Shown here: piece after piece, positions 38,402-63,777 of the stretch | Position numbering within the stretch: position 1 is the stretch's first letter | Layout: the number at the start of each line of letters is the position of its first letter | Assembly (NCBI RefSeq): GCF_000003815.2 | Contig: NC_049997.1 | Span: 7,536,707 to 7,600,706 of the forward strand | DNA from: Branchiostoma floridae | Lineage: Eukaryota; Chordata; Leptocardii; Amphioxiformes; Branchiostomatidae | Length of the DNA: 64,000 bases | Direction: 5' to 3' | The notes under the pieces: model-generated | What the model saw: the letters and a program-made list of their open reading frames with translations, nothing else | Told to the model about the DNA's origin: nothing | The model's database searches: none | Program-made: the position numbers and the translations under genes

Positions 38402-41400
38402 TCAATTTTCTACAGGTAGTCTGCTGTAATATTTCATTTTCTCCATAGTGATGCTGCACAGCCAACGTGAAGGCGTCCTTACATCTTCTGAACGGACCAG
38501 GAAGTTGATTTGTCCGCAGAATGGGATCCTGCAGGGCTTCGGGCTCCGTCCACACTGGGCATTTCTCACGTGCATTGCGAATGCTGTGTACAACATGAAA
38601 ATAGCTGACTGAGTGTATGATACTATCATTAGCTAGGTCTCATCTCAGAGGCCTTGATGTCTAGTAAACATCATACTTTGCATCAAAAAAAGACTTGGAA
38701 AGATCGCAAAAGGGAGAGGAAAGTACATGTAAATGTTAATTCACATGATTAACGTAATCCTCGCAGCTAGAGTTTGTGTCTTTAGATTAAGTTTTCGAAA
38801 TAAAACTACCCAAAAGTCTATCAAACGGATCATGAGTTTAGGTAAATGTAGATTTACCTCTGGTCAGGAATTGTTTCTGGGGACATGTGACGACGTTACA
38901 CGTGTCAAGCGCATGGGACATCAACGCGTCCATGGTGTCACAGGGAAGACATTCGACATCAACGCAGCCCCATCGCAGATGTCTGTAGTAGATGACGAAC
39001 ATCATCTCCAAGATGTAGGGGTAGGCGTTAGCTCTGAAAGGCTGGTTGCAATCCTGTATTGGAGTGTTATTATAAGTACAGTTAGATTTTCCAACCGACT
39101 AGTTTCTTTGTATGGTGTAACTAGATACTATACATACGAGCACAAAAGAACATACGGAAAATAAAGGCAAATAAACTAGGACAGTTTTAAGAAAGAATAT
39201 GTGTGATCTACAATGTATTCAACCCTGGGTATTCGGGCCTCATGTGGAATGATTATCATCTAAGTTACTGTTAGACTTCCAGTTGCTATCAAGGAGGCTA
39301 TACAACCTTGTTTCTACTCATAGCAAGCATTCTATTCTTTGCTGTGACTCGTGAAACAAAAATGTCTTCTGATTATTACTTCGCCTTGAAGGACAGATAT
39401 GTAGGATACTAATACAAGATAATGTTCGTCTCACCAGTCATAATCATGATATGAATTATTACGTGTACCTTTGAAGCAGGCCACAGGACCTGTAGTATCT
39501 GCTGTGCCCTTTCTGGTCGCACGGGAAGGGGCGTCAACTGGAGTCAAAGGCAACCAATAGTGATCACTACAAACAAAAATAAAAACTAGAAAGGTAAGCC
39601 ACCAAGCACGATCTAGCCTGACAAACTACTGCTCTGTTCATTCTTGCTCAGACATTCTGGATAATCACCAACACCTAACACCTCCCCTTTTTCCTAGCTG
39701 CCAGTTGCTTTATTATGTAATCAATACCACAGGGTGTCTGATACACCTCCAGTAACCATGGTGACAGCCGTCTGGATCAGGTCATTGACTTTGTTTGGAG
39801 AAGAATCAGCGAAACCAATATGTTTCCCTTCTGTGGGGGGAAACATTAATAAGCACAATTGCTTGTTTACGCATTTGACCAATACAATTACACAAACACC
39901 AAGACTTGCTTTGCCAGAGAATTTTGGTGTCAGTTCGCTGGGTATACCGTATCAGATATGAAAAATATTTTATTAAGTATAGGCTAGCAACCCGTCCCTG
40001 TGCAATAAATACATCCTGCTACAGAAACAGCAATGGAACTTGCTGCTACTTGTTTACATGCCACCAGGCACTGCAAGGTCAACAGCAACAACATCAGCTA
40101 TTAGCTGTAGTATCGATGATTAAAGTCTATATTTACCTCCCTGCCAGAAATCCCCTGTAGGATTCTCTCCAGCACGTCGGCCACCAGGAGTCTTTCTGGT
40201 CTTGTCAGCCGGTCCCCTCTGTGGCCATCTTCGGCGATCAGTTGGTTCTGTGGAAATATCTTAAAGTTATTACAAGCGAACATTTTTGCAACCACTGAAA
40301 CACATTTTAGCTTGATCTTTAATGACAACTATACTCACCGGCGTACCAGAATGTCTCAGTAACTTTACTGAAATGATATTTACCTACCTATCACACTGGT
40401 GCCGTCTATGTTGTTAATAGATGTGCACTTTGGGCATATAAACATGTGTATCACCATGAAAGACGATGGTGACGGGTAAAAAAAATTTTATACCTGTAAG
40501 GAAACTTTCAAAATCATTTCACTGAACTTTGCATTGAAGACGTCATTATTTTTAAACATAAATAATGACCGTAACAAATATAACAAAGATAATTGTTATT
40601 TGTCTGGACAGGAAATAAGTAACAACATGCTTTTGTGTAGAGTCGGCACGAATAATAGACCTTGTATGGCCTCCTTCTGCCAATATTGACCATGGTAAAA
40701 TCCTAATAGTAATAATAGACCACCCATTCACTTATGTAACAAGGCAAACTAACTACAGTCGTGCCTTATCGATCGGCCTGGGAACCATTGGGTCCTCCTC
40801 CATGATCAGGACGAGAGGCACGCCGATGTACCGGTTGACCTCCCGGCATGTCAGCACGATAGCAGTCTTCCCATCGACTGTGCGACTGGAGGTGACATTA
40901 GTTGAGATGATTAACCTCAATGACTACAAATGTATATACAAACCATGTGCCTAAAATCCTGTCTTTGTGTTGAAGAATTCGTATCTACAAATACATGTTT
41001 ACATGCACATGTAGTGTGAAATTAAAACCCGCTTCTGTGACTCAGAAAAACAGACCCCACCACCTTTACCTCCCGGAACCTTAATAACAATGGTGACTTA
41101 TTTGCCCTTGAAACAGGGTTGGACTTCATATTCTATAATTAGATAAGGAATTGTGCAAATACTGCACCTTTTAACATTTCAATATTTGCTACATATGAAA
41201 ACACTGCATTCCCCAACACAGGTAGGTCGTAAGTTCGGTTCCCAGTCAAGTCATACAAGCGACTTTAAAATGGTACACACTGCTTTCTCTACCTAGCACA
41301 CTACATTTGGGAAATAGTATGGTACTTGAACACACAGACCACTTTCAGTGCTAGCCCCGTTGCCTCAATCTTTCCCATTGTAACAGGCAATTGACATCCA

Positions 41401-42468
41401 TGAGACAGTCATGCGACCTTTAACTGAATTAACAATGCCAAAATGACACAGACATTTGAGCTATGCGAACATTGTGTCTGGGTTGGATGACTTTATGCAT
41501 AAACCCATGAAACAGCCATGATTTAAGACTAGTTGAAATCCAATCCCTCACTATGTCCCCTCATAAAAGCATGATATTTTCTTGTTGTAATAAAGCATGT
41601 TGCACACTTCTTAGTACTTACTATTTCTTCAAGTTCCTAATGTTTGTGCTGATATGTCCACGGCTATCCAAAACCAGTCGGAGCAAACTTCTGTCAACCG
41701 CCTTCCTGGTCTTGTGATCAAGACTGCCAATATGACAAAACCACAAAATTATTGTCCACCATAAGTTTATGTCTGTCCATTTCTGCTTGTATCTAGTGCC
41801 TAGCACAACAGTTACTGTAACATCAAATGGCACCAGTTGTGCAAACATAGCATCAATATCCTCAACAAATTCTCATGAAATAACATTTTTGTAATTTTGC
41901 TTTTATACTAACATTCCAATAAGGCAAGTTGGTCTTATAATTATATGGCCTATTTTACGAGGTAATCGCATGCTATCATAATGGATACAAGTAGGCCTTT
42001 ATCAAAGACTTGGCGTAAAACTCATGTCATTCGGTGTATTTTGATACTCGACACAATGACCAATAGAATATACCCCCAGAATGTAATCATTATAATAGTA
42101 TTGATCTTGCAGTGGTAAGGTACAAGTACCTGTGTTACGAACGTACAGTGGAATCAAAAGTAAATACATTTGTTTACGGCATATTTATACGACAACCATT
42201 ACGACAACAATCAAGTAAAATGTAAAATAATGTTATAGACTTACTCTTCTCGGGTCAGTAGTCTTTGTGGTGTCGACCTCAGGTCTTCTAAGCTGTACGG
42301 TCTTAGTTTGTACATGCATATCGTCTGCTGCCCGAAAGGGTGAGAAAATTTCCTCCTCCATTGGTCTTGGGGTGTCCGTGAAGAAACCGGCACACAAAGT
42401 GCCTTGTTGTCGTTGAGCATTGAAACTATCAATACCCTATCTCCCGTGGGACTTTCACTTGCATCCAT
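38402..42468 (-). CDS. TAZ-like zinc-finger protein, paralogue A (330 aa)
   Basis: Seven exons on the - strand: 42468-42245, 41723-41622, 40885-40765, 40247-40137, 39537-39469, 39041-38858 and 38583-38402, giving 993 nt including the stop. N-terminal 200 residues: DRVLIVSMLNDNKALCVPVS, DGKTAIVLTCREVN and RGDRLTRPERLLVADVLERI; I recognise no named domain there. C-terminal Cys/His region, residues 230-293: H230, C235, C240, C243, H252, C257, C262, H275, C281, C288, C293, ending CRIPFC. This spacing and the C-x4-C 'PFC' end resemble the TAZ finger of CBP/p300 (CPVPFC); that assignment is an inference. No signal peptide or membrane segment. The donor at 40765 is a non-canonical GC (AAG/GCACGA), supported by the paralogue's GT at the same place. 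Divergent from the receptor gene starting at 43961. Confidence 0.82.
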
Positions 42469-43960
42469 ATCTACAACAGAAGTGATTTTTTTAGATCAGT
42501 TGCCGAAGAGCAGACAAAATAGGTTCACCCGAAGAAAAGAAAATGGCGTCAATTTTTAGGATATCAATTTACATATATAAAGCAGCTTAGTACCCTGGGT
42601 TTAAAGTGTGAAGTATTCACCGTAATTAAGTTAAAACAGACCATTTCGAGGCAATGTGATTTAAATCGCTATCCATGAAAATCACACCAGAAAACCTGGC
42701 TCAATTTGAAGTAAACAACGCAACCGGCAACTCGCTGGCAAAACTTCTAAGCAACAGGTTTACGCAATACGTAACTGACCTGCATGTCAGTGGCGCCATG
42801 TTGCTTCTCTTACAAACTTAGATATTTTTACGTTAACATCAAGCTTTTGCCAAAACAGTCCGCAAAGCCGTAAATTAGATTTGCTATTTTTCATGTTAAC
42901 ATGCAGAAGGCAGCCTCTAGACCGTAAGAAGGTTCATTCTAAAAAAAAATAAAAACTCATTTGGGACAACCGATTTCTGTGAACTTCAAACCGACAAATG
43001 TGTCTTAGAGTGATTGTAAAGCTTAATAAACCACCGGTGCAGTTAGCTAAAATTTCATTTATCAACACTCTTGGTTTGGCGGTAAGCACTCTGTTCTGTC
43101 AGGCTACTCTGTCTTTCTTGAAATTTTATCTGGACTATTGTTTACCTTAGTTCCTTTAACTGGCGAACGGTTGCATCCATGGCCAATGTTGAAGAAACAT
43201 CTTCCGAAATCTTACAAAATGCAGCTAAAATACACAACTAGATATCTTCTATCTCTCGCAAGAATAGATGTGGGTGCGACGATGCCTAAAGTACGGTGCA
43301 ACTGCGCTGAAATGGCGCGAATTAAACCCCAGGTTCGTGAACAAAATAGTGCCACCCCACACAATGCACAGGAGTGAAAACAACTGCGTCACGTCAGAGT
43401 CATTGATTAGGTATCGATACTGATAGTTTGCAAAACAAATTCACAAAAGCCAAGATGAACGCAAGATACATCAATTTCCGCATTTATTGTATGTATTTTA
43501 CTTTTTATTAATTATGGAATTGTCATTAAAAAATGTAGTTTGACCTTTGACAGACATCCCGTGACTCGGGATAGTTGAACCTGTAATACGAGATTGTTTA
43601 CACCTGTCACCGACACTGTATAAACAAGACTGTAAATGCCTCAGGTGCTACGTCAACAGTGACCTATTCCAAACGTAAAGAACGTATTAAAATCTTTTAA
43701 ACTGTGCTTTAATTTCAATGTTCACATGAATTTTCCTTTACCCTTTAATTAATAACATTTGTTGTCTTTCTGACCGCAAAGATGTTCTGAAAAGGAATGA
43801 TAGATTTATTCCGTGATGACTAAGTACATAGAGTCGCCATCTTGAACAAACTAAGCACGTCTAAACAGGCTGTCAAGGTCGAAAGGTCCATTTTGTCCAG
43901 TGTTTTCCAAGCGCCATTAAACCTATCAGCAGGGACTGAAAAAAATAAGGCACTGTCAAC
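42469..43960. promoter_or_regulatory. Divergent promoter interval between TAZ-A and TNFR-1
   Basis: 1.49 kb separates the two outward-facing start codons. TAZ-A's ATG is directly preceded by an acceptor-like CTGTTGTAG, so its transcription start is probably farther in, after a 5' UTR intron. No coding sequence recognised, and no single core element is clear. Confidence 0.55.
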
Positions 43961-46900
43961 ATGAGAGGAATGAAAACAGCCCCTGTCTGGATGCAAATCT
44001 TATTTGTGAGTATGACAACATAATTTGTAGATAAAAAGATATTTCAAAGCCTTAAACGTGTTGCTTTGGCCATATTTCTTATTCCCTTATTGTGCTTTAG
44101 ATCTCCTTAAGTAAGGTGCGTTAATGACTTCAAATTCTGTGTGATGAATGTCAGACCCCCCAGAACGTACCTTGACCATGTAATTTTCCTTTATATTGTT
44201 CAGATAGAGTTGGAGATAAGGCGCTTTCCAAACAACATGTTTTATTTTTGTGTCTCATGTTGTAGATTGCATTCGTTGGCAGGGTCAGAACACGTGAAGA
44301 GCCTCCACTATGTCCAGCAGGTATACCGACTTAATGCTAACTATGTTACATCAGGTTTACCTGTTAGAAAAGATATTTTAGAATTGTAGTGTACCTTGGT
44401 TTGGGTGTGTCGCATACTATCGCAAGTAACCATCAGTTCTGCAAACCAGTTCCGTAAATGTAGCATTATCGTATATCAAACTCTCTTTCTGGACAGTGAT
44501 TCAACTGTTGAAATTAACATTGACTGACAAGAAAATTGTCCCCATAGAAATAGATAATGAACTACATTGTACTTATCATACCCCGCCCCTACCCCTACCC
44601 CACCCCCCTTAACCGATTAACCACCACTAGGTGTATTAGTACACAAGCTGGATGCCTATATAGCTGTGGAAAGGCTATAAAAGACAACTGTATTGTGTAT
44701 ACTGTCTGGATGTAAGTCAAAAGCACTAAGTACGCTTTATATGTGTATCTCGTCGTATTTCAGGCATGTACATGGACCAAAAAGAAGGTTGTGTATCATG
44801 CCCAGTGGGGACATATTCGCCTGTACCAAACACATTCACGAGGTGTTTACAACACACACAGTGTGATGTACAAAATATGATTTCATCACTTGGCACTGCT
44901 ACACATGACACCGTGTGTAGGTGTCTTCATGGGTACCATTGGGATGATGCAACAGAGACCTGTACCCGGAATCTGTACTGCCCCCCTGGGGAAGGAATCG
45001 TCGATGGTGGTAAGATAAGCATGTTTCTATCCATACATATACATAACAACGTAAAAACTTTTATTCTATTTTTAGAAATACTTCTAGCTATGACATTTCT
45101 AGCTGTTAAAAGTGTTTATCATGCCAGTCTGCTACTATACGTACTACTACGTATACTGTCAGCCAGTCTATTCAGTCAAATAGTATACTGCTGCTGTATA
45201 CAGCCACACAGTAATGCAGCACCGTGGTTTAGGCTGACATACAGTTATAGTATGCATTGTGTTTTCCTCCGTAGGTCAAGCGTGCACAGCATGCATCAAC
45301 GGCACATACAGCGACGAACTGTCAAATACTGAGCCATGTATCCCATGGACAGAGTAAGTAGGACAGATAAAGTCTATTATTCATTTTTTTCGTAGAACAC
45401 CGTAGCAGTTTATATGTTGTAGATATCTGGGGTCGCAAAAGAAATATTGGCACCCGCATGGATTAAATTATACTTTATCTATCACTACATAATTTGTAAA
45501 AGCTACTGTTGGTGGGTGCCAAAAGTAACATACAAGTAGTTCTCAGTTTGTTACTGACCTTACTTGATGTTGTTCTCAGCAGAACCATCTATGCTTCGGG
45601 GCTTCACCGCTTTGTCTATACATATGTCTTCAGTCATTATAGGAATCTCTGATCTACAAACTTTACGAAATGTATTGAGAAAATTTGTCTTGTGTTTTCA
45701 GCTGTAGTGACTTCGGATGGACAGTCATCTCAGAGGGTACATCAAAGAGTGATCGGGTGTGTTCCGGCCTAAATAGAACAGTTGAACCTACCACAACGAA
45801 CCCTGCCGTCGCTGGAAATCAACTAAGCTCTAAAGGTGATACTCTAGAATGCTCACAATATTTCGTGCGTTTATCCTTGACGACTGTTCAATAGCAAAGA
45901 AATCTTAGGCTAAGGAAAGAAAAAATAGCCAAACAAATGCCGTCAGCTTAATCGTAAGGTTATCATCAAATTATGGAATAGCTCAGAGAACCAAAAGAAG
46001 TTGTTTGTATTTCATTGTATGTCATTTACACTAATTTGATATTGACGTTCTTAAATACTACTTAGATAAAGAAGAGGCCATGGAGAGGCAGATGTCGACT
46101 CCCTCTACGCCGAGCACAATGGGAGTTAGCATTATCGTGTTGTCTTCTGTTTCCACTTTGGGCATCTGCATTCTCCTATCCTGGAAGGGATACAAGCATT
46201 GTGCACGGAAGAGACAAGTACCGGAAGTACTGTTAACCGATCATACAGCTGAAGAAGGTAAGAGCGACACTATTGTCTGCCTGTTGCTATACACAGCCTA
46301 GCCCTCAACGTCTTGTTAATAGTGATCTAAAGATCGTTAAAAGAACTGTACAAATTGTATGTTTGCTCGCAAGGACCTATATTATTACCAGGTGGACCAG
46401 TTATGATACGTTGCAAACATATTCAATACACTTTTGAATATTTTCTCTCATTATGCTATTGGATGCTTGGTGATGCTCTTACAAATACATTACAATGAAT
46501 ATCATATGTCTGAACCATTTTCATTAGCAATATTGGTGAACGAAGCTCCTGTTGACAAAATTGAGGAGTCTGTCGAATGTGAGGATGATAGTCTACACAC
46601 ACATCCAAAAGAAAAAGAGGTACGTCAAAAGATGTGATATCCTTGCATAGATACGACGAAAATAGTTTTGTGCCATACATTCTGAATGTAAGTTTGAGAC
46701 ATGAGGACTTTAGAATTTCCATAAAATGGAGGAGATATTTCATCATTTTGTCATGCGAAATATTTCTGTTATGACGGTTGACAGTTCGATATTTTTATGC
46801 TGAAATTGTAGAACGATTCGCCTATCATCGGGTACTATAATCTTGAACTATCTATTAATTGAGTAATATTCATTAATCGCTCCAGCATAAAATATGTTGA

Positions 46901-47949
46901 TGGTGTGTCTAAGCTAACGCCAATTTCTTCTTGCAGTGTTTTTCAGCTTGTGACGAACACTCAGATAGCCAAAGACTTCTAGATCCAACAAGTGATACAC
47001 GTCCCCAATGCCCAGACTCTGGCTATGAGGTGAGTATTGAACTTGTTGCTTACGTCAGTCTATGGTAGCTAAATGTCACTTGAGTAAACAACTGAAAATA
47101 TAAAGCGTTGAAATCGAAGTTAGTTTGATATTGTAAGTAATATGATATCGGATTTGGCATTATGATTGCGAGTTGTTATGTCATAGTTCGTTTCATGTAC
47201 ATTTTGTTTCAAATGTGCAGAATACGGGCTGTGAAGGTCTAGAAGACGAGGGACCAGCCACTGAAAGTGAAAACCACAGGGAGCGATCAACTGCCCAAGT
47301 GATCCCTCAGGTTTACACTGTGGACAGCACAGTTTCCCCTGTTGCTTCTACCGCGGCATCATCTGTGCAGACGTCTCCATCAAGCTTGGACTATCGAGAA
47401 GGGGCACAGAGGTTTGTCCTAGGAGTCTATTCTGATGGTAAGGATCACAAACACAAATTCACATGCAGATACATATCGTTGTGGCATAAGAAATTACAGC
47501 AAGGTACACTTTGGCACAGTTGTCCAATATTTTTTTGTCAATCGTATGTCCTAGTAAAATAGGGTTCTAAACTGGGGGCAAACAAATAAGATTCAGTAAA
47601 TCACAATAAGTGATGCATTCATATTGAGAATTGAGCTGGTCTAGATCTGATCTGTTTTGTTTTGTTTACAGCTCTGACGGTCGAAGTTGTGGAATATCTT
47701 GCGACAGAACTTGGAGAAGACTGGAAATATGTAGCCCCTAACTTAGGTCTAAAGCAGCACGAGATCGACCAAATTATCAATGAACATAGAGATGACATAA
47801 AACAGCAAATCTTTGCCATGCTTTGCAATTGGGAACAGGACAAAACAGGCGACGCTACAATTTCGGATATGAAGGAGACACTTTTGACGTGCAATAGACT
47901 TGAACTGTTAAGCCGCCTGCAGACCTTAAATGGCCATGCTGTGACATAG
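43961..47949 (+). CDS. TNF-receptor-superfamily member with death domain, TNFR-1 (476 aa)
   Basis: Ten exons: 43961-44005, 44266-44320, 44764-45009, 45275-45353, 45702-45835, 46066-46257, 46528-46619, 46937-47029, 47221-47437 and 47672-47949; 1431 nt, all phases consistent. Signal peptide MRGMKTAPVWMQILFIAFVG. Cysteine-rich repeats from about residue 28 to 163: GCVSCPVGTYSPVPNTFTRC, TVCRCLHGYHWDD, CTACINGTYSDE, PCIPWTDC and SEGTSKSDRVC, the classic TNFR pattern. Transmembrane helix about 205-226 (MGVSIIVLSSVSTLGICILL). Cytosolic tail with VQTSPSS at about 362, then a death domain about 388-470 (LGEDWKYVAPNLGL, EIDQIINEHRDD, MLCNWEQDKTGDATISD). Expected at the plasma membrane, signalling through death-domain adaptors. 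Orthology to a named vertebrate receptor cannot be assigned by eye. Confidence 0.9.
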
Positions 47950-49815
47950 AAAGGACTGGATCAGTAAAGTGTTTCGTTCATTATCACCAATGATACAAAT
48001 TCCGACTTTAAATACTGCTATTGATTCCTTGTAATTTTAACATAGTTTACAGTAATTCCTACAAATGAATGGACTATTATAGTGAAGTTAAAAATAGTCC
48101 CTTACATGTTTTATCAATCATTTAACTCATTTCCAAATACGAGAACAGATCACTCATACATGACTGTGCTGTTATCGATAATATTTTGTTGTTCTGTATG
48201 TAGCCTCGTACAGCCTATATAGCTAGTAATTGTTATTGGTTGCTATTCATTCATTTAACAAGGTAAAACAAAAGAATCATAAAAAACACATCTGTAATAT
48301 AGTTGTACAAAATGAGATCCATTTTGTGTGTATACTATTGTGGTGTCAACGTAGGTAGATGTGTTACAAGGTTACGTGCTATATTGCAAAATATGTACAA
48401 AATGTAATACGTTATGTATCTTGTGTATTTTAGTGTGATAGCTCTGTAGTTTCCTTGTCTGTCATGTGATAGTGTATGATGTACTTGTATATGTGTGCTT
48501 CATGTATAGGGTCACAGGGAGAAAAGCTTACAGAAATTTAAAGCTAATTTTGGATCCAAATAAGGTGAAAGATTACATGAATCTATGTGTGCTGACGCTA
48601 AGTGTATCTACATTTATTTGAATGTTATCTGCGTGCTTATTCGATATTCTACTTCTTTACCTTGGATTTCTACTCCAGAACATTGTCAATAAGTATCTCT
48701 TCTTTTGTGATTAGTATATTTCATTTCTGCAACCTTCACTTGGGCATGATGACATCAGTTGTAAAATGGATGGCGAGCAGAGCTCGAGCTCGATGTTAGA
48801 GCACTTCGAATTTAAAATGTTAAACGTTTCCTACTTTCTATTTTTCGGGGTCTATTTGGAATCTATTATATTTTATCTGAATAAAGGATGCATCAAAATG
48901 TATGATAGAATTTAGTCTTGTCCATTGTGTTGACTCTGTATCATAAAACGTCTTCAATTTGTGTGAGTTTGGAAGTATCAGTACTGTTTTCAGAATGCGA
49001 TCGTGATGTTTTGATTGTTTGCCAGTATCCTCAGTAACATCTGCTGATTACTATCGGCGCTCCTTACAATCTAGTGAAAGGAGCTCCGGTAGTAATAAGA
49101 TGGTACCCGGGCTAGTTTGTCAGTGTGAAACCTTTTGTCTCATCATTATTATCTTCATTACACAGAGAGTCAAATTAACTATTCATATATAAAACATGGG
49201 AAAGAATCGGCACATCATTAAGTATAAGAAACGGGATTGTAATGCATGATTACGAAATTATTACACTTTTAAATGTACAAAGAAATAGATCGCCACAACA
49301 TCGATCGTTGTACCTACATCTTTATGTATAAATATATCTTGTATATTGCTTTTAGTCTAATTTACATTTTTTTCTGTTTTGTCGTTTTACACTTCAACAG
49401 ACAGACAGACATAAGTTAATAAACATATTTACAGTATACAATGTATATCAGACCAATAGAAGAGCTACCAGTTGTCTAATCATCCTAGTGCCAAAATAGA
49501 GCTTTTGCGAAAGTAGAAGTCTCTGGGAGCTCTGACTTGCTAGTTGTTTCTTACTTCTTTTGCAAGATACAAAATGTTATATCTACATAATACAATCATG
49601 TTGTTTTTCCTTTTAGCCCCATAGATGTTAGTCTGCAGGATGCCTGTATTATTGCTTGTCTTCTTAATAGGTGCTATATATATATATGATGGACACCATT
49701 TCTAACGTTATGTACATGTGTGTTTGCTATATATGTCATATCAGGATGACCCAACAGGTAAGCATCCATTCTTATTCAGCAACACGCAACTCAGATTTGG
49801 TGTTAGCAAATTACA
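47950..49815. other. 3' UTR of TNFR-1 and convergent intergenic DNA
   Basis: AT-rich, no gene seen. AATAAA at 48880-48885 is the likely TNFR-1 poly(A) signal, giving a 3' UTR of about 0.95 kb. Around 49050-49115 is a GAGCTCCGGTAGTAATAAG block related to one at about 60155-60210 after TNFR-2. Confidence 0.6.
48880..48885 (+). terminator. Poly(A) signal AATAAA of TNFR-1
   Basis: Canonical hexamer in CTGAATAAAGG, 931 bp after the stop codon. Confidence 0.55.
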
Positions 49816-51504
49816 TTAGCTAACATTTTTGTCTGAATGCATGGCTAGAGGCTGACAAGGATAGATTATTGTGCGAATGATGTTTTCCACGACATCGTTG
49901 GTGATCCAAGGTCCAAGTTCTTCCCTTCTCTCCCATATCAGATGTCTGCTGTCGTCACAGAACGGAATGAAGCACGTTCCAGTTGTAGGGTGAGTACACG
50001 GGTGTTGAACATAATCTAAGGAAATTACGTGAGAGAGACACATAATTGTAGATTGCAACTTAATTAATACTCAAACAAATATTGAAGTACATAATCATCA
50101 AATGAGAACGCTTTCATGGACATGGGGACAGTAAATGATATCAACACTTTTGCTCAAAGAGCTCTATGATATGCTAGCTTTTGGAACTTTCTGGCACTTT
50201 TATAGAAATTGGCCACTTGCATGGGTCTTGGCTTAAGAAAAGAACAGATTTATCTGTAATTGTCCTCCTAGATCCTCTGAAAGCAACATTGGCAATCGAT
50301 TTGCTGGCACGCATTCATTACAAGGAAATCTATTTTCATTTACATGGTTATAAGAGATATTATATATGTACCTTTCACGAGAATTGCCCTATGTGTGCAG
50401 TTGATAGCACGGCACCCCACTGTCTTTGTTACAATGGCGATGAGGCGAGAGCAGCGATGACAGTCACCACAGCATCCCTGCTTTCTATGGCGTAGGAAAT
50501 CAACCAGGAGTCTTCCGACGCTCTCGCCTTCAGGTGCAGGCAATGGAGCACAGCGACACACTTGTGGAGGTAGAACCTGAGAAAACCGGAATGTTTGAAG
50601 CTCATTATTTTTCCTCGAAGGCGTACTTAACACAAAATGGGATGAAGACAGTTGTGTCATTTTGAAATAGAGCCTATTCTAAGAAATATTATCTTACCTC
50701 AGCGCCGTTGGATAGCCTTTTCCTCACTCTGCCTGTTTTTGCTCTAGTTGCAGATAGAGGGATGAGATTCAGCTGAAAAAGAGGGAAATGTAAAAATAAA
50801 TGTTTGTGAAATGCAATGATATACATGTACCCTTACCCACACTATCCAAAATTCTCACCTACCCCATGCCCTAATTGTAATTGATAATTCTTCAATTGAG
50901 GCACTACTTTACAAAATCAAAAACATGTGAAGGTCGACAACATAACTGGGAATTTGCTCACAGCTACAATCATAACTCAGATTTTCAATTGTGTTTTAAA
51001 ACAACAAGTAACCTACAAAATGCATAACTCACCTTGTAGTCAGGAAGACCTTCCACGAGACGTTCTACCATACTGACCGCCAGGTCTTCTTCATCTGCTG
51101 TCAGCCCGTCACCTCTGTTGTGTGTGTTTGTGACAAGGCTCGTCTGAAATTTCAAGGATGGGAGGAAAATGATTTGAGTACCTCTTAAGTGATGAAACGT
51201 TTTGATTTACCAATATTGTAATGAGCTAAATCTGTATTTTCTTAGTGGTATGACTTTCACACAATATAGGTGTAGTTCAACAAGCTATTTGCCACCAGAA
51301 AAGACCATAGCATATCCAGGTAAAAAGATACAAAATATATTTTTGCTGCAGTACCAGGGTCACATACTAGGTGTCCAAAATCGATCTTAACCTTTGTGTT
51401 CCCTACATCTGCCCACATAATAAATATAATGAAAATTAAGCAAGAGTTTGATGAGTAATGGTGACTACAAAAATCCAGAAACACACACACACACACACAC
51501 AGAT

Positions 51505-51555
<51 letters not shown>

Positions 51556-52844
51556 GGCAGACAGAAACACAGACATACACACAGACATACTCAAAACAAT
51601 ACCTTAATTTTTCATTAAGATAATAAGCTCTCTTTAAACACAAAGATACACAGAAAATAAGCATACACAATGGAACACACCTCATCGATTTGCCTTGGCA
51701 GCACCGGTGCCTCCCCTAGTTTCAATACGATGGGCCGGCCAGTCGTGCTGTTGAATTCTCGGCAGGACAGTGATATGGCTGTTTGTCCATCGTCTGTTGC
51801 ACTTTGGTGTAAATGCAATGGGATGTAATCAATCACATTGTCCTAATTATACACAAAATGATATCCGCAAAAATATTTTATCCAAACCACTGTCAAACCA
51901 AGTCATAGGCGAATACTTGCACAGACTATCTCTGATATGAAAATACCGATATTTCATCACATATTGCTGGACTTACTATTTTTTCATATGCCTGATCCTG
52001 GAATTGAAGTGTGAGTCGCTGTCAAGAAAGATGTACCAGAGCATCCCCTCAACTTCCTGGCGCTCTTTCTCACTGAGTCTTGAAACACAAATAAACAACC
52101 AATGAAATCAACACAAAAATAAATGAAATATAATAAAATTTCCACCAGCTTCGTTGTTTGAACAATGACAAAGTTTATCGCATATTTGTGCCTCATTGGA
52201 GCTAATTGCAGTATGTTAGATACACAAGGAATGACCGTACAGCTATCATATGCTTGACTGATATCTATAGTTATCATGACTATTCTCTCATGTAAATACT
52301 GACCCCATATGAATTCTCTTTGATTGTAATATGGTAAGGGTGATCTCTTTACACATCTTTAGCATGGCAATAATGTTGTTGTTGCCTCGTTTTCAATTCA
52401 AAATGGCGGCCCCTTTTCGCAAGTATTCAAAATACACAATAGAATGTCTGACTCCGCTATGTAATTTTATGTATTCAAAGTTATTTTACAGTGGTGGTGG
52501 CTATGGCAAGTATGATAAATCCAATCATTTGTTGAAATGATCTGACATGTATTAAAACTACGATGCCATTTAAGGTAATTGTACTTTTAACGTGGATAGC
52601 TATAATAATAATCTTTTGCACGTTCATACCTGTCGCCAGAGATAAAGTTGGCTTCTTGAGACTGAATATCTTGGACGGTGTAGCACCGCATGTTATACAT
52701 CTGGATGTAGCAGCTTTCCCATCCCTCTATGATGTTACAAGGAACGGTGAATTTGTTAAACTTGTCCTGGGGTTTTTCATTGGAGATTATGGCACCAAGG
52801 TGGTGTGTATCGTCCACCCTTGAAACCAAGGCGACGTTTGCCAT
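49816..52844 (-). CDS. TAZ-like zinc-finger protein, paralogue B (342 aa)
   Basis: Seven exons on the - strand: 52844-52630, 52078-51977, 51801-51681, 51143-51033, 50772-50698, 50576-50372 and 50015-49816; 1029 nt including the stop. Exons 2, 3 and 4 have exactly the lengths of those in paralogue A (102, 121, 111), with the same phases. Similar blocks: ALVSRVDDTHHLGAIIS, MKKYATDDGQTAISLSCREF and RGDGLTADEEDLAVSMVERL. Cys/His region, residues 238-295: HRKQGCCGDCHRCSRLIAIV, C263, C268, then H280, C282, C290, C295 with TCFIPFC; CHRCSRLIAI resembles CPICKQLIAL of CBP TAZ2. An AG acceptor (CCTTTGCAG) abuts the ATG, suggesting a 5' UTR intron. No signal peptide or membrane helix. Divergent from TNFR-2. 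Confidence 0.83.
51481..51553. repeat. (CA)n microsatellite
   Basis: ACACACAC runs with a few AGATAC and AAAC interruptions, inside an intron of paralogue B. Confidence 0.95.
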
Positions 52845-54499
52845 CTGCAAAGGTTTTTACGAGTGTTTACACGATATTAGGGAGACTAAAGAAACAAACA
52901 TTATTCCTAGACAATGACGATGAATGTAAAAAAGTTAATGAATTTGTTTTGCATCCACATATTCTTCTAATCTTACCATGTACACGCCATAGACATCTGG
53001 AACATATTTCGTTGAATACTTGAACGGATATAGATTCCAGAGAACTATCCTAAATCTAGAGATATGTTTTCAAATTTTCATGGCCTCCTTGATCACCCAT
53101 TGCACTGATACATTTCGTATTAACATGACGCAGCAATTTGAACGTAACGAGGAAACGATTTGTAAAATTAATAACTCGACAGAAAAATATAGACAGATGC
53201 TGTAAAAGTTGCCAAATGATGCCCAAATTTTCTTTTTTACATCACTAAGCCAATACATGGATAACTCCTTTGGCAGTTGATTTCATCGAGACAAGTTCAG
53301 ACTGACTACCAGTTGTAAACAAGACACAACAACTTGATTAGTTGAATTAAAAAAGGGTGAAACAATCTTCGAAATACGGAGGTAAATTAAAAGAAGACCA
53401 TAAAGAAAACTATGCGAAAATGTACCTTGTTTTCTTGTTGTACCCGGAGACCAATATGATTAATGTAACTTTAAGAAGTTTTCATGATAAACTCGATTGT
53501 TTTCCCAAGAGTCCATCAGCACTGATCATACTTGAGAAGGCCGTCGCCATGTTGGATTTGGTAGGGACCGACCATTACCTGTATCCAGGTTTGAAAAAAA
53601 TGATGCAATCGTATGTCTGCATTGTGCAAGAGCATTATGACCGCAAAACACAGACATTCATATTTCCCACTATGAAGGAAAAATTGCTAACTTCTTTCAA
53701 TTTTCAAACTTGTCCCTTTAATTCTTTTTGATAGAATTTGATCACAGGCAAACTCATTCCATACTCAGTTCTGATTTAAGGGTCTAACTAAATATACACA
53801 TTATCAGAGCATTTTGACAACCCGTTAACATCACAGCATAAGAATGCTTATGCACACAGCATTAAAAAACAATTTTTGCTGTTCATTTATGATCCATGCC
53901 TATTATACAGTGAATGACCCCACGTAGCATGAGTAATGACCCTCAAACACGTCCCACCTATTTCTTTTGTTTGCTAAACAAAGCCTGTTACGCAGGTGGA
54001 AAGTCCCCACCGATCGCAACGTAACGTTAGGTAACTCTCAGTACAGCTTTCCCTCTTATTACCTTTATTTCGTTCAAGATCACTGCTAAATTTGTACATT
54101 CAACTAAGTTTCCATTTCTATACCAAGTATAGTGACGTACAAGTTGAAAGCTACATATATTAAAAAAAGTTAAGAAAATAGTTTCCCGGGATCCTTTTGC
54201 CGACGTGCAGAATTACACCTCAGTTACTTCCGGTATTTCGCTTTTACCTTTAACAAGTCAGTTTCTGCCTTTGCTTTGTCATGTCTGTACAGAACATAAT
54301 TGAAGTAGTCAACTAATATCCATTGGAGTGAGACAAATCAAATCCTGGGGCGACTTGGGGTTTTCCTATACATTTCTGTACGTAGATGTACAATATTCAT
54401 TCGTGTAGCGTTTTAAGTCTTTGTCAGATTACTATTTGTGTACTTGGAATACATATATTTGGCAAAGTCATAGATTTTAATACGTTTTATTCTTCTCAG
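52845..54499. promoter_or_regulatory. Divergent promoter interval between TAZ-B and TNFR-2
   Basis: 1.65 kb between TAZ-B's ATG and the first TNFR-2 exon I can place. It must contain TNFR-2's signal-peptide exon, which I could not identify with confidence. It also contains the open frame at 53357-53731. Confidence 0.5.
53357..53731 (+). CDS. Unassigned open frame, 124 aa
   Basis: An uninterrupted 124-codon frame in AT-rich DNA with a plausible composition (for example SALIILEKAVAMLDLVGTDH and GLKKMMQSYVCIVQEHYD). No signal peptide, membrane segment or family I recognise, and no splice signals that would attach it to TNFR-2. It could be chance, a relic, or a small gene. Confidence 0.2.
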   Translation: MKQSSKYGGKLKEDHKENYAKMYLVFLLYPETNMINVTLRSFHDKLDCFPKSPSALIILEKAVAMLDLVGTDHYLYPGLKKMMQSYVCIVQEHYDRKTQTFIFPTMKEKLLTSFNFQTCPFNSF

Positions 54500-57400
54500 G
54501 CCGTCGTCTTATTTCAAGCAGCGGTAAATATGGAATGGGAGTGTGAGCTCTGTGACCCAGGTACGTACAAATGTTAAATGGACCTTGAAACATATGTAAC
54601 CTTTGTTATGAGATATTCATGAGATACGGAATAGAAACTTATCATCGTAGGCTGTGATGTAGGCACTTCGTTGAGGTCACGATGGAGTGCCGGTGCCTGC
54701 GATTTCACCTTAAGTCAAAACCTATAAATTATTTCTGAAACTATCACAAGTTTGTTATGGACCCGTGACACGTTTTACCCAGTGAACGTTACGTGAAGCT
54801 TTTGTTTTATTTCAGGGTACTTCATGGTCAGTCCATGTGCCGATGGATTGCGAAATTCTACATTATGTGAGATGTGTAAGGGTAGAACCTTCACACCAAC
54901 TCATAACAATGAGACATCTTGCGTCAGATGCCGTGAACCAAATCACGTCGTTTATTCTGAGGAAGACACACCTATCGCCTGTCGGTGTGCAAAGGGGTTC
55001 CACAAGAGACACAGCACTTGTGTACGGAACGCATTTTGTCGACCAGGAAAGGGGATACACAGAGGTGGGTGCCTGTCTAATGCCTAGGTTACACATAGCC
55101 GAATTTGGCTCCCGACACTCTCCCGACTATGGTTTAGGAGTGATTCGGGAGCTAGTCGGCTGTAGTCGGCTGGCGTTCGGCTGAGTCGGCTGGCGTTCGG
55201 CTGTTGTCCGGCTGAGTCGGCTGGTGTTCGGCTGCTCCATCCGAATGTTTTGAAATGTTCAAAACATTCGGCTCTGAACGGTAACTCTGGAATGGGTCGG
55301 TTGGTGATCGGCTGGTGTTCGGCGCGGTCGGCTAGTGTTCGGTTGGTGTTCGGAGTAAGTCAGCAGTCAAATTAAATCTTAACCATGGCATAAACATTGC
55401 TGATTTACTCCCAGCTTGTTTCCAACTTACCAATGATTCACCCCAAGACCGTAGACAAATCTCTGCTAACTCATTTCCAAGCAAAAAGACTATTGCCAGG
55501 ACGTAGACGAATCACCCCCGAACTTCCCACGACCGACATCCAGCCAAAAACAAAAAGAACCATAAATGCCGCACTGGAGCTATATGTGATCCAAATTTGA
55601 TCTCTTGGTGATGTTTACAAAATAGAAGAAAGGATAATCTTGATTAAAAACGAAAATGAGCACTCTTTTGAAAATCGATGATTATGTCTATTTCAAGTCG
55701 AGAGAGGGTCGGCAATCGGTTGGGGATCAGTCAGGAGTGATTCGGCAGTCTGCGGCTAGAGGTCGGGATGGTTGGTGATAGGTTAGTTTGCATTTGGGAC
55801 ACAGTCGGGAGTAAGTCATTTACTGGTCGGGAGATGTTCGGGACATGTTCGGCGCTAAAAAAATAGGCGTGGCCTAAACTGGTCAGACTACTCCCGAACT
55901 ACTGCCCACTTGGGTCGGCTAAGAGTCGGCTAGTGTTCGGGAGCCAAAGTCGGCTATGTGTAACCTAGGCATAACAGTACAGACGCTTCACTCTTTACAA
56001 GCAAACCCACCGTTATCGATTCGTGACAGGATGTTTATTTTGCCAGCACCACAGTCGCTGCTGTCGTTTCATTAGAAAGAGTTGCAATCATTTCCTTATG
56101 TTTCAACCCAACTATATGTATTAGTGTTTTCTTCATTTTCAAATTCACTCTTTTAACATACAAGGAAAATCAACCAAAGTCATATAAAGTAATAATGAGG
56201 CAATTTACGTGCTTAGTTTCTTAGATCTACAAAAGTATAGATACTTTGGACAAAACCTAGTACGTGGGGAAGAGGTCAATGTAAAAGGACAAATTTCCGA
56301 ATCTAGTTAGCATTCTCAGGTTTTGCTATTTCATAAATTACAATTGTCATTGTCATTGTTATCAATCTCCCTCAAATGTATCTTTTCTCAGGGGGCTGCC
56401 AACATTGCCCTGAAGGACAATTCAGTAACCAATATTCCAACACACAGCACTGTCGCCCTTGGACGAAGTAAGTAACAGGTCTAATTTGAAAACATCTAAA
56501 TCTGACTTTTCTGCCCTCCTGGCAGATTTTGGCAACCCATATTCAAACTTCTACAATTAAAGCTATATGAACACATTTTGTAACAATGATTAATCAACAG
56601 GACCGTGAAAACAGAATTTCAAGAAAGTAATATATGGAATGTAACCAAACTGTGTTGGCTATTTCTCAGTTGTACCGCAAAGGGAATGATCACGATGTCC
56701 GAGGGAACGTCAAGAAGGGACGTGATCTGCAGAGATACAAGTGCGATGAGAGGAAGACGTCGGCACTACAGGAAACAAACAATGGACGCCGAAAAGGAAA
56801 CGGTAATCTCTACAACACAGGCTCCAGCCAATACATCAGGTCAGCAGAAGTGTCATATTTGTTATTCTAACTACGAACTACTTGTTATTCTACGCTTTAG
56901 ACGACATTACCCTGACTACATTTGTAACAATTAGATGTGTTTACACTTAGGCCACGTTGATTTGATTATATGGATGACATCCGCGCTCGCACCAATTTTC
57001 GGCCATTTCCAAAAAAAAAAAAAGTTTTCGACCAAACAATAAATTGTGCAAAGCAGCTGTAAAATGAGCACAAATATTCCGTAGATTGAAAAAAAAGTAT
57101 CAGAAAACAGATAACTAATGCGCCAAAAGTAGTTACTCAAGCAACTGGATATGGTTTTGAAACGGTCAGACGTTTCGGATAGAATCCACTATCCTTCGTC
57201 AGTGACACTGAAGAGATCTGGAAGAAACAGGTCTTTTATACTCTAACTATGAATGAAGACAATTTCAAATGTCCAATAGGAAAGGTTGTAAGATAATTAA
57301 TGCCAGATAACTAATGCCATATGTAGAATGCCAAAATGAATCTAAAGTCAAAGAATAAGATGTGAAAGGACGGAAAGAAAAAAAAATCTATTGTTGGTTG

Positions 57401-59872
57401 TGGGAGGTACCAGTACAGAAAATTCAGGTCCAGAGGATCATGGTATACCATACTATGTGTGTTTAGTCCTATGCTCAACATTCCTGGCCACTTTAATTTC
57501 ATACTGAAGACAACTTTTTTTTGGGCCAAACTTTTTTTTTATTCGCTCGTTCGCATCAGTTTTGGAGTTCCCTGAGGATGTCATCCATATAATCAAATCA
57601 ACATGGCCTTACAGATCTACTCATGATGTAATGGCAATTTGACTGTCTTTATTGTACTTCTATGAAATGTATGGGTTAATTTGTGGTAACTTGAACATCA
57701 TTTTAGGAATTTGTCCTTATTTTCTGTAATGGATTCGATACCTTACGGAATAGTATGGGTACATCAGACTTCTGCGAAAAAGATGTCTGCGGAACCCTGA
57801 CCTGGGGGATAACATATGACCGCATTTTTCCACAGAGAGGAAAATTCTGAGACAAAAGGGGATAGCTGTAGCACCAACCTCGTCTTTGAAAGTGATCGCT
57901 ACAACAACAACTATGATAACACAATCAAAAACTAGTGATCCACGCAGCCAAATAGCCGAGATTTCACCTGCTGTGTCCAAGGATGATCCGACTCATTGGT
58001 TAATAATCATAACAATCGCTGTTATTATGCTGCTACTGCTTGTAATCGTCATGCAAATTACCATTTGCCAGAGGGGACTGAGAGAGAAAACTTCGAAAAG
58101 AAAAGGTAGGATATCTCTCTTAAAGATTAATGTATAAATTCTGTATCGGTCTGTTAAGTACTAAAGACATCATAAGATGTGATGACTGCAAAATGCCTCT
58201 AACCCTGATTAGATTATGTTAATAAATGGACATGAATACAGATGAATAAAAGCAATTCGGATGTAATTTGGCTCGAATCTGTACATTTTGTAACGTGTAG
58301 TATCTTTTGTTTTGTTTTGTGAGCAATGTTGATCGCTAACCAAGCTGCGTGTTGCCTATCAGTAACCTGCAGACCAAAACAGGAAAGTCGAGACGGAGAG
58401 AAATCTCCCGTGCACCATAGGGCTGTCTTGATGAGTGACGAACAGATTCAAGTTCAAGAAGAACCTTTCGAAGTTCCCACAAGTCCAACTGAGTTCGAGG
58501 TAAAGAAAGTAATTTTTCAAAGTATGTAAATGACATAATCTAATAACTTTGATAATTTTATTACTCGCTTTCTGACAAGTGTCCTTACACTTCCTGGATT
58601 ACAGATGAAATACATGCCATTTAGAATTCTAACAACAACAATTGAAATGATCAGCTGTGCAGCATTGATGTATTTGTCAATTTGTGGTTTGCACCGCCTA
58701 GCCGCTTAGTAACAATTGTGTTAACTATAAGCGTCTGATACTAGTATACTTATTGTACAAAGGGTCATCTTCATGTGAACGAACCACCACCGTATCACTC
58801 ACAAGATTTGCAAGTAATAAACAACTGCAACTGTAACTGCAACAGTCACGAGGTAAGAGCCGACTTTTTCATATTTCCAGGACAACTTCTTCAAGGGACC
58901 TACAAACAACTATGTGCCAATGCAACGTTTTTATTACCTTCATGTAAATGTGTTTATTGAAATTGTTACTACCCTTACCTCTTCATACGGCACACTCGGA
59001 TAAGTCAATCAACGACACATTCAAACTGCAAAAGTTTCTACTACAATTTTGGTTGGGTCATAAAACAATGATAAGGATGATGATGATCGGCAGAATCACG
59101 AACATAGGAAAGAAAATCTTATCTTTGTTATATGTTTTGGCAGAATTGGGATGATACACCCGAAAATCAAGACTACGAAGGAGAGGAAACCAGTCCCAAA
59201 ACCCACATACCCCTGGGGTTTTCTGTCTCCATGGAGTTTGCAAAAACCCCATTGGCGCACTCCAGCGAATCTCTATCCAGCACGCACGTTTCCTCTGCTT
59301 CGTGGCAGACGTCTCCTTCAAGCGTGGCATACAGGAAGAGGATCCAAGAACGTCTTGCGCAAGTTGTGACAAATGGTCGGTCCACGTTAGCTGTCTCAAG
59401 TATTATCATCATGCATCAACATAACGGTTGAAGCTAATCATGATATTCAGTGCTGGTTTGTGTTTTGAACATAACGTTGCTTCATTTTGTTGACTTGTAA
59501 AGTGGTAAAAAGTACAATGGAAATTGACAAGTCTTTGCATTATCTTACTTGATTTCATTCTTTCTTACAGTGCTGTCGAGAAGCGCGATGGAGCATCTTG
59601 TAGGAGGACTTGGGCGGGAGTGGCAAGCGCTGGCTCAATGTCTGGGGCTTACACCGGCCGAAATCGATCACATCTTAAATGAAAATAGAAGCGATTTGGA
59701 CAAACAAATCTATGAAATGATTAGGCGTTGGCAACAGGGTAGGACAGGAGAAGCGTCCATCTCTGAATTGTATGGAGCACTGCTGGAGTGTAACATGGAG
59801 GAATTACACAACAAGTTGGTTTCTTTGGAAGGTGCTGGTGCTGGCTGCAAAACTGAAACGATTATTCAATGA
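54500..59872 (+). CDS. TNF-receptor-superfamily member with death domain, TNFR-2 (541 aa visible, first exon missing)
   Basis: Nine exons: 54500-54560, 54816-55064, 56392-56467, 56670-56839, 57836-58105, 58324-58499, 58763-58852, 59144-59375 and 59571-59872. Each corresponds in phase to exons 2-10 of TNFR-1, so a signal-peptide exon ending in phase 0 should lie upstream. Cysteine-rich repeats: CELCDPGYFMVSPC, CRCAKGFHKRHSTC, CQHCPEGQFSNQYSNTQHC, PWTNC and SEGTSRRDVIC. Ser/Thr-rich stalk, then a transmembrane helix (HWLIIITIAVIMLLLLVIVM). Tail with EPPPYHSQ, a PPxY WW-binding motif absent from TNFR-1, a CNCNCN cluster and WQTSPSSVAYRKR, shared with TNFR-1. Death domain in the last exon (LGREWQALAQCLGLTPAEID, MIRRWQQGRTGEASIS). 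Likely a plasma-membrane receptor. Confidence 0.88.
55081..55971. mobile_element. Foldback element with GTTCGGCTG-type internal repeats, TAA target duplication
   Basis: 891 bp. TGCCTAGGTTACACATAGCC is present at both ends in inverted form, flanked by TAA on each side. The inner arms are tandem GGCTGRTGTTCGG / GAGTCGGCTGG units. No transposase. The 3-bp TWA duplication suggests PIF/Harbinger mobilisation. It inserted 16 bp after a TNFR-2 exon. Confidence 0.85.
56950..57608. mobile_element. PIF/Harbinger-like non-autonomous element
   Basis: 659 bp. Ends GGCCACGTTGATTTGATTAT and, inverted, GGCCATGTTGATTTGATTAT, continuing ATGGATGACATCC; flanked by TTA on both sides. The centre holds TTTCGGATAGAATCC then CTTCGTCAGTG but no open transposase. 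Located in the TNFR-2 intron before the transmembrane exon. Confidence 0.85.
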
Positions 59873-62949: not shown

Positions 62950-62967
62950 GTTCATCGTTAACGACAG

Positions 62968-63777
62968 ATGGAGCCGCCACACGTGGGTAGAAAGGTTGGG
63001 GAACTTGCGGTCGCTGTGTTGGAAGGTTCCCAGTCTCTTATCGCCCTGAAAGTTCCCATCTCCACAACAGCGCCCGCAACTCCCTGGGAGGAGTCCTTCT
63101 CATCGAAACTCAGACTAAAAGGCTGGTCAGAGGATGGCTACGTGCGTCTCTTCGACATACAGAACCACTGTTTGGGTAACCCGATGTCACAGGATGTTGA
63201 ATTGATAACTATAGACAGGTAAGAATGTGATGAAAGACGCTATCTATATATATATTCCGTGCGTAAGTACACAAAGGAGGTGATCATGATAACAAAGAAA
63301 ACAAATCAGCTAGTCGCTTTTCAATGCACCTTTATAGCAACACCAAGTGTCTTAATTGCTTCAGCTCTCTGTACAAACTTAAGTTCAGCATGAGTATGAT
63401 ATAAATGTATACGGTCACTTTCACTTTAACAAATCAGCCATTGACCTGTACTTTACGTAAGCCGGGGAACAATTACATAACATTTAACAATAACAATTAT
63501 AACAAAACATATCACAACTTTATAACAGCATCCAAACACATAAAACAATCACACAATAAATCATGTTTGCATATTTGTAATACTTATACAGTTTATCAAG
63601 ATGTTTTCTAATACTTTGCCTGTCTGAAGAACTAAATTTTGTTTACCTATACTTCAGTATCCCTGACGACATGAGGAAGGAGGCAATGCAGGCTGACATC
63701 GAGGACAAGATGAGGACTATGTTTCTTGAGGAAGAAGGAGTTCACACGAGATCCAAGATTCGCCAACTTCAAAAATA
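62968..63777 (+). CDS. TAZ-like protein family, paralogue C, 5' two coding exons (runs off window)
   Basis: Exon 1 at 62968-63218 (251 nt) and exon 2 at 63658-63777 (120 nt), with the same phases (2, 2) as paralogues A and B. Exon 1: GELAVAVLEGSQSLIALKVP and YVRLFDIQNHCLG align with the N-terminal blocks of A and B. Exon 2: DDMRKEAMQADIEDKMRTMF then SKIRQLQKY, against IRNLKKY in A and IRHMKKY in B; it is 18 nt longer. The final codon is split AAATA/GTAGGA as in the paralogues (AAATA/GTAAGT), so the in-frame TAG there is a splice junction, not a stop. An acceptor-like AACGACAG abuts the ATG. The remaining five exons would lie beyond 64000. Transcribed opposite to A and B. Confidence 0.75.

Follow-up and report, generated by a model that had tools for sequence, protein, structure and literature searches.

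Two divergent gene pairs lie in the window (the whole 64,000-nucleotide stretch of Branchiostoma floridae DNA that we analysed), each consisting of a minus-strand gene for a Cys/His protein and a plus-strand gene for a TNFR/death-domain receptor. The pairs are paralogous exon for exon, a third pair is found about 100 kb to the right of the second and outside the window, and the death-domain subfamily is concentrated in this one cluster. The products of the Cys/His genes (zinc-type genes below) remotely resemble the TAZ2 finger of CBP/p300 without belonging to that family.

We consider it probable that an old divergent pair, with a gene for a death-domain receptor of the TNFR superfamily facing a gene for an intracellular TAZ2-like protein, was duplicated as a unit. 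Two or more such events within ~150 kb of one chromosome would have given pairs A, B and C, and the other copies (zinc-type D, E and F; receptors D and E) would have lost their partner or never had one. On this explanation, the receptor may signal through its death domain to RIPK1/FADD-type adaptors, and the zinc-type protein may bind activation domains somewhat as TAZ2 of CBP does, without an acetyltransferase, and so serve as a competitor or an adaptor. Both genes may be transcribed from a bidirectional promoter region.

Gene pairs and further copies

The features in the window are as follows.

38402..42468, minus strand: TAZ2-like gene A, 334 aa in 7 exons, hand model with splice sites, frame re-checked
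42245-42468, 41622-41723, 40765-40885, 40137-40247, minus strand: its exons 1-4
39469-39537, 38858-39053, 38402-38583, minus strand: its exons 5-7
42469..43960, no strand: pair A interval, 1492 bp
43961..47949, plus strand: TNFR/death-domain gene A, 476 aa in 10 exons, gene model and Pfam
43961-44005, 44266-44320, 44764-45009, 45275-45353, 45702-45835, plus strand: its exons 1-5
46066-46257, 46528-46619, 46937-47029, 47221-47437, 47672-47949, plus strand: its exons 6-10
49816..52844, minus strand: TAZ2-like gene B, 342 aa in 7 exons, hand gene model
52630-52844, 51977-52078, 51681-51801, 51033-51143, minus strand: its exons 1-4
50698-50772, 50372-50576, 49816-50015, minus strand: its exons 5-7
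52845..54499, no strand: pair B interval, at most 1655 bp (1541 bp with the ATG at 54386 as the start of TNFR B)
54500..59872, plus strand: TNFR/death-domain gene B, exons 2-10 with 534 aa read, gene model and Pfam
54500-54560, 54816-55064, 56392-56467, 56670-56839, 57836-58105, plus strand: its exons 2-6
58363-58499, 58745-58852, 59144-59375, 59571-59872, plus strand: its exons 7-10
62962..64000, plus strand: TAZ2-like gene E, start only, running past the window end
near 63043-63216 and near 63674-63775, plus strand: exons 1 and 2 of gene E, profile matches

A preliminary description had proposed two paralogous pairs in this divergent arrangement, with gaps of about 1.5 kb and zinc-type starts 10.4 kb apart, and had read them as one block duplication. 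The gene models agree with the arrangement in both pairs. The gaps between start codons are short in all three pairs (1492 bp in A, at most 1655 bp in B and 1284 bp in C), and the starts of zinc-type A and B are 10,376 bp apart. The proposed exon-for-exon paralogy holds for the seven zinc-type exons and the nine shared receptor exons, with phases kept. Both pairs are real, but their number was too low, since there is a third pair and there are unpaired copies as well.

The reading frame is open throughout in zinc-type A and B; gene A has a GC donor at exon 3, and its exon 5 is uncertain. With blastp, 95 of 309 positions are identical (31%, E 1e-42). Intron phases are equal at all six internal junctions (2,2,0,0,0,1) and the lengths of exons 2, 3 and 4 match (102, 121 and 111 nt), an agreement that is not wholly independent because the models were made by hand, each guiding the other, and exon 5 of A and the exon 3 acceptor of B are fitted choices. 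Zinc-type C was read after these models and has the same phases wherever its exons were identified. The start codons of A and B each stand immediately 3' of a possible splice acceptor (both short of the 90% quantile for AGs of that strand), so transcription of either gene may begin upstream.

The two receptors align with blastp in two stretches, at 40% (E 1e-26) and 29% identity (E 3e-22). Once spliced, both have a Pfam Death domain above the cut-off (A 4e-13, B 5e-11) and both have cysteine-rich repeats, with TNFR_c6 above the cut-off in A (8e-10) and below it in B (3.4e-5). We saw hydrophobic stretches by eye, candidates for a signal peptide and for one membrane span. These receptors resemble TNFR1, Fas and p75NTR in having cysteine-rich repeats and a C-terminal death domain, and perhaps in the putative span; the death domain would be intracellular. 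They differ from TNFR1 and p75NTR in that the death domain, as compared for receptor A only, is closer among solved structures to RIPK1 (9e-10) and PIDD (2e-7) than to TNFR1 (0.017) or p75NTR (0.32).

Pair C, whose interval is C19:7690255-7691538, was found with profiles made from the window's two copies only. Its receptor matches in the death domain (5e-32) and the cysteine-rich exon (8e-18), and the two best exons of its zinc-type gene match at 8e-6 and 8e-5. Phases are as in A and B for zinc-type exons 1-4 and 6-7 and for receptor exons 1-5, and the first exon of TNFR-C is hydrophobic and 13 codons long.

Zinc-type D and E and receptors D and E are unpaired, leaving three of the five genes of each kind in the cluster paired. 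The matches of gene E to the two-copy profile are weak but collinear (E 0.03 and 0.18); a smaller search gave 0.0005, 0.15, 0.003 and 0.09 for its exons 1-4. Exons 3, 4 and perhaps 6 are beyond the window end, and no receptor was found on the minus strand upstream of this gene. Around TAZ-F, the 30 kb of C19:9916001-9946000 have no clear receptor (best cysteine-rich match E 0.34).

Later profiles contained zinc-type C, D, E and F and receptor C, which makes the E-values for those genes circular; the independent values come from the A/B-only profile search and the smaller-stretch search, and no profile included TNFR-E. Our count of zinc-type genes is not exhaustive. When A and B served as queries, C and E went unseen and D came up at no better than 1.6, so any other copies that have diverged as far would also have escaped. 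For TAZ-D, the search for exons 6-7 covered only ORFs of at least 35 residues in which two cysteines lie close together. The counts leave out weak matches on C4 (0.018), C6 (0.29) and C2 (5.5).

For the death domain, a genome-wide search (150 of 178 candidates scored) gave 26 matches at E<=0.001. Among the scored candidates, the best six (60-187 bits, query included) are all in C19:7.58-7.72 Mb and the seventh, at 33 bits, is outside the cluster. Even if the members of a pair do not act together, the cluster has five TNFR/death-domain relatives (A, B and C modelled, D and E from exon matches), against the 10 TNFRs in total, 4 of them with death domains, that are given in Table 1 of a B. floridae survey (PMC4979521).

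Block duplication or separate spread

Exon structure, the third pair and the clustering of the death domains support duplication as a block, and so does the equal divergence of the two members: between A and B, 100 of 314 zinc-type positions (31.8%) and 143 of 454 receptor positions (31.5%) are identical. Identical fourfold sites number 15 of 41 in the zinc-type genes and 19 of 67 in the receptors, and synonymous sites look saturated. This is as expected of an old block duplication.

It is quite unlikely, in our judgement, that receptors and zinc-type genes spread separately and that the three pairs were each formed on their own by local duplication or rearrangement. Of the zinc-type sequences, A and F are most alike (48.6%, over exons 6-7 only), and of the receptors, C and E (47.6%); the order of identities is not the same in the two families: receptors B-C (43.5%) exceed A-B (37.9%), whereas zinc-type A-B (32.6%) exceeds A-C (29.1%) and B-C (25.2%). 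However, the three pairs are alike in orientation and spacing, and the C+E grouping in the receptor tree has a support of only 49. The unpaired zinc-type genes and receptors are also not each other's partners, which means that the trees are no test of the pairs, nor do they date the two sets of duplications relative to each other.

The zinc-type proteins and the TAZ2 finger

The label "TAZ-like" survives as a remote resemblance to TAZ2 from hhalign but not as family membership in Pfam, and is weaker than first claimed. The zinc-type proteins have the Cys/His order of TAZ2 in CBP/p300 and end in C-x-I-P-F/W-C, where the TAZ2 domains of this genome mostly have C-P-V-P-F-C. When zinc-type A, B, C and F were compared with the genome's own TAZ domains, hhalign gave a probability of 60%, and none of 100 shuffles was as high. 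With A and B only, the score against a TAZ2 reference sequence was reached by 1 of 100 shuffles. Against an HMM built from the TAZ domains of this genome, gene B did no better than a receptor control (0.85 vs 0.39).

The differences from CBP/p300 are scores below the Pfam cut-off, one missing ligand in the second cluster and the lack of other CBP domains, none of which matched in zinc-type A or B. Measured against three HCCC zinc clusters, a scheme that we assume here, and with the alignment judged by eye, the second cluster is one Cys short in each of A, B, C and F; that of B is also without its His. By visual inspection, A and B lack part of the zinc ligands and E has lost most of them.

That these are unrelated Cys/His proteins with no TAZ kinship is unlikely, though it deserves weight. 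The Pfam scan gave no zf-TAZ (PF02135) match for A, B or C, the only match of B being a chance-level one to another family (0.2), and the N-terminal ~190 residues have no significant Pfam match. The six zinc-type exons scanned singly against Pfam, and the NCBIfam scan, gave no matches. Solved structures searched with the zinc-type exon profile gave three chance-level matches, led by a KLLA0F12672p chain (0.13) and Rtr1 (0.25), with no TAZ chain among them. On the other side, zf-TAZ is the sole Pfam match of TAZ-F (E 0.01, 16.7 bits, below the cut-off of 25), and hhalign ranks TAZ2 above the TAZ1 and TRAF6 fingers.

A TRAF-type zinc finger was considered and rejected (0.2% in hhalign against a TRAF6 reference, with 66 of 100 shuffles as high). 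Viral and prokaryote contig collections gave 60 and 61 pattern stretches with none confirmed; being viral and bacterial/archaeal contigs, they are no evidence on absence in animals. Among the papers listed by literature searches on the TAZ part of the pair (8 of 1,212 in one broad search), none dealt with zf-TAZ.

The intervals and possible shared control

The preliminary description also had each pair keeping a shared promoter interval. The layout and the length of 1.3-1.7 kb were kept, but the DNA sequence was not, and we reject shared interval DNA: the observed alignment scores were reached by 36 of 100 shuffles for A-B, 39 of 100 for A-C and 79 of 100 for B-C, and by 79 of 200 for A-B in a separate run. 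CpG o/e is 0.90 in interval A and 0.82 in interval B, against 0.57 for the whole window, and 0.82 in interval C against 0.64 for its region. Raised CpG o/e also occurs elsewhere: the top 1500-bp windows are at 251 and 60251, outside the intervals. Interval B has a double peak of CpG o/e separated by a dip to 0.47, a profile closer to that of two promoters than of a single one.

It is plausible that the two genes of a pair are controlled together. This stays something we infer, since orientation is kept by default in block duplication, some copies have no partner and amphioxus has many divergent pairs. There is a considerable chance, somewhat short of even, that the layout is simply inherited, with unrelated neighbours co-duplicated by unequal crossing over and no selection for pairing or co-expression. 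This would fit the automatic preservation of orientation, the unconserved interval DNA, the persistence of TAZ-D, TAZ-E, TNFR-D and TNFR-E without partners, and the missing clear receptor near TAZ-F, the nearest relative of TAZ-A. According to PMC6292497, bidirectional promoter arrangements account for 25% of neighbouring genes in amphioxus and are enriched for housekeeping functions. Against inheritance alone speak the short gap in three of three pairs despite ~30% protein identity, the raised CpG, and the finding that, out of 21 AANATGGCG sites across 234 kb, 5 fall in the intervals (binomial 3e-5, for a motif picked after the fact). This motif, which we take to be YY1-like, has three sites in interval A (42540, 42794 and 43835) and one in interval B (53545).

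The genes here are head-to-head like those at amphioxus bidirectional promoters described in PMC6292497 and, for SYCP1/CHIC, in PMC5803294. They differ in that the pair is present threefold, with start codons 1.3-1.7 kb apart.

A stronger version, which we regard as improbable, would make each pair a two-gene death-signalling module, with a receptor and its own decoy or adaptor resembling CBP TAZ2 under one promoter, diversifying as whole cassettes with co-evolving partners. If the members do act together, lancelets would pass on a death receptor and its nuclear-type partner as one cassette, and it could be tested whether genomic pairing predicts pathway partners. We know of no other animal in which a death receptor and a nuclear-type partner gene are paired.

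In a scan of ten patterns, TATAAA occurred twice in interval A (1.6 expected) and not in interval B (1.8 expected). GAAANNGAAA is found 13 times in the window (4.6 expected), once in interval B, and is not informative. The kappaB consensus is absent from interval A and, among the pair intervals, occurs in B only, with two sites at 53998 and 54357.

Gene models and age of the pairs in the window

In assembly coordinates the window spans C19:7536707-7600706. We assembled four gene models from splice sites and reading frame, for the zinc-type genes TAZ-A and TAZ-B and the receptors TNFR-A and TNFR-B that face them. TAZ-A and TAZ-B each have seven coding exons and agree in phase; three of the exons are equal in length, and 95 of 309 residues are identical (E 1e-42). 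The receptors have nine exons in common, again with the same phases, and TNFR-A has an extra 5' exon (the TNFR-B model begins at exon 2). The preliminary description had called both members paralogous exon for exon, and these models agree. In Pfam, Death was over cut-off in both receptors, and TNFR_c6 was over cut-off in TNFR-A and under it in TNFR-B.

Overall A-B identity is 100/314 in the zinc-type proteins and 143/454 in the receptors. Where residues are shared, the fourfold sites are identical at 15/41 and 19/67 positions respectively, which is near saturation level. The similar divergence of both members would fit a single old duplication of the unit as a block, as had been proposed, but it does not prove one.

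Two MITE-like insertions lie in different introns of TNFR-B, and an EPS8-type gene lies to the left of the pairs:

55080-55972: 36-nt inverted repeats (97%), 821 nt between
56949-57609: 34-nt inverted repeats (97%), 593 nt between
Left of the pairs, plus strand: EPS8-type gene with spectrin-like, SH3 and SAM pieces

A third pair and other copies

We searched the flanks on both sides with profiles built from the window's two copies; for the last 10 kb of the flanks, the profiles also incorporated the zinc-type C-F and TNFR-C sequences. The left 40 kb gave nothing at E<=1 with the two-copy profiles. The following genes and stretches were found:

C19:7690254, minus strand: start codon of TAZ-C, facing TNFR-C
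C19:7691539, plus strand: start codon of TNFR-C, facing TAZ-C
62962-64000 of the window, plus strand: TAZ-E, a further TAZ2-like gene that starts near 63.0 kb and runs out of the window
Minus strand: TAZ-D, exons 1-4 matched
Minus strand: TNFR-D, from exon matches only
Minus strand: TNFR-E, from exon matches only
Near 7667.6 kb and 7680.8 kb: two more death-domain stretches
C19:9.93 Mb: TAZ-F, a partial copy (exons 6-7)

Pair C, to the right of the window, has the phases of A and B in zinc-type exons 1-4 and 6-7 and in receptor exons 1-5; exon 5 of TAZ-C was not found. TAZ-E matched the two-copy profiles weakly (0.03 and 0.18), and a second profile search gave four collinear exons at 0.0005, 0.15, 0.003 and 0.09. 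It was seen with the two-copy profiles only and was missed when we scanned the window with the four proteins of pairs A and B, which returned no additional copy. Upstream of TAZ-E a receptor is absent, exons 6-7 of TAZ-D were sought and not found, and the 30 kb read near TAZ-F held no clear receptor (best cysteine-rich match 0.34). Within C19:7496707-7730706, three of five zinc-type genes and three of five receptors are divergently paired. Head-to-tail repeated death-domain pieces at L019:6928-7291 (minus strand) are perhaps a broken or multi-domain gene.

Genome-wide searches covered the 513-Mb assembly (431 contigs). With 150 of 178 candidates scored, the death domain of TNFR-B had 26 matches at E<=0.001; the top six, query included, scored 60 to 187 bits and all lie in the cluster, which also has a partial match of 30 bits, and the seventh (33 bits) is on C12. 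TAZ-A gave 11 matches (seven own exons, one in B, two in F, one weak on C4), as did TAZ-B (seven own, one in A, one in D at 1.6, weak ones on C6 and C2). Both queries missed TAZ-C and TAZ-E, so further diverged zinc-type copies may exist elsewhere.

Trees were built from six zinc-type and five receptor sequences with 100 bootstraps. TAZ-A and TAZ-F stood apart from the others (100) and TAZ-B grouped with D and E (84), in an alignment where F contributes exons 6-7 only and D and E exons 1-4 only, with no columns in common. The receptor tree was weakly resolved (49 and 83). Because pairs A, B and C make a single unrooted triplet, the trees are uninformative on congruence between receptors and zinc-type genes.

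Affinity of the zinc-type family

Neither TAZ-A nor TAZ-B had a zf-TAZ match in Pfam, the N-terminal part of the zinc-type proteins had nothing significant there, and among the solved structures matched by the zinc-type profile there was no TAZ chain. For TAZ-F, zf-TAZ was the sole Pfam match (E 0.01, below cut-off). With hhalign, A and B reached a probability of 27% against the genome's own TAZ domains (score 25.6; best of 100 shuffles 20.3) and 22% against human TAZ2 (a score that 1 of 100 shuffles also attained). Taken jointly, A, B, C and F reached 60% against the genome's TAZ domains and 36% against its TAZ2-type domains alone, with 0 of 100 shuffles as high in each case. Scored with an HMM built from the TAZ domains of this genome, TAZ-A had 0.0037, among four sequences, and TAZ-B 0.85, which is not better than the control TNFR-A (0.39). 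TAZ1 and the TRAF6 fingers both scored at shuffle level.

Judged by these comparisons, the family appears TAZ2-like and we do not assign it to zf-TAZ. The earlier TAZ-like naming keeps the hhalign likeness above shuffles, but A and B lack the domain match. The zf-TAZ family search (L001-L008) had nine matches, with an apparent CBP on C7 and further TAZ domains on C215, C2, C16 and at C19:16.66 Mb.

Intervals between start codons and the meaning of the pairing

The DNA between the start codons of each divergent pair measures 1492 bp (interval A), <=1655 bp (B) and 1284 bp (C), in line with the spacing of about 1.5 kb reported for A and B. A shared promoter interval kept after duplication had also been claimed; the layout is kept, but the pairwise DNA likeness of the three intervals is not above shuffles. 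CpG o/e is 0.90 in A and 0.82 in B (window 0.57), and 0.82 in C (region 0.64). Values elsewhere in the window equal or exceed these, so the raised CpG is not proof of promoters.

The window has 9 copies of AANATGGCG, which we take to be a YY1-like motif, where 1.2 would be expected; 5 of 21 sites in 234 kb fall inside the three intervals (binomial 3e-5, with the motif chosen post hoc). The kappaB consensus occurs 3 times in the window against 2.9 expected. Two of these sites are in interval B (53998-54008 and 54357-54366), and intervals A and C have none. One of the two is a full GGGGACTTTCC, the window's sole match at <=1 mismatch, and one such match was also present in 38 of 100 shuffles. 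We treat both kinds of site as leads only.

In PMC6292497, a bidirectional-promoter arrangement is given for 25% of neighbouring amphioxus genes, most often ubiquitous ones, and PMC5803294 describes a case of amphioxus head-to-head genes with similar expression. On these accounts, a divergent pair is by itself ordinary. Co-regulation of the paired members, like their function, is something that we infer. The unusual feature is the presence of three copies of one pair of unlike genes in a cluster holding the six best death-domain matches among the 150 of 178 candidates scored.
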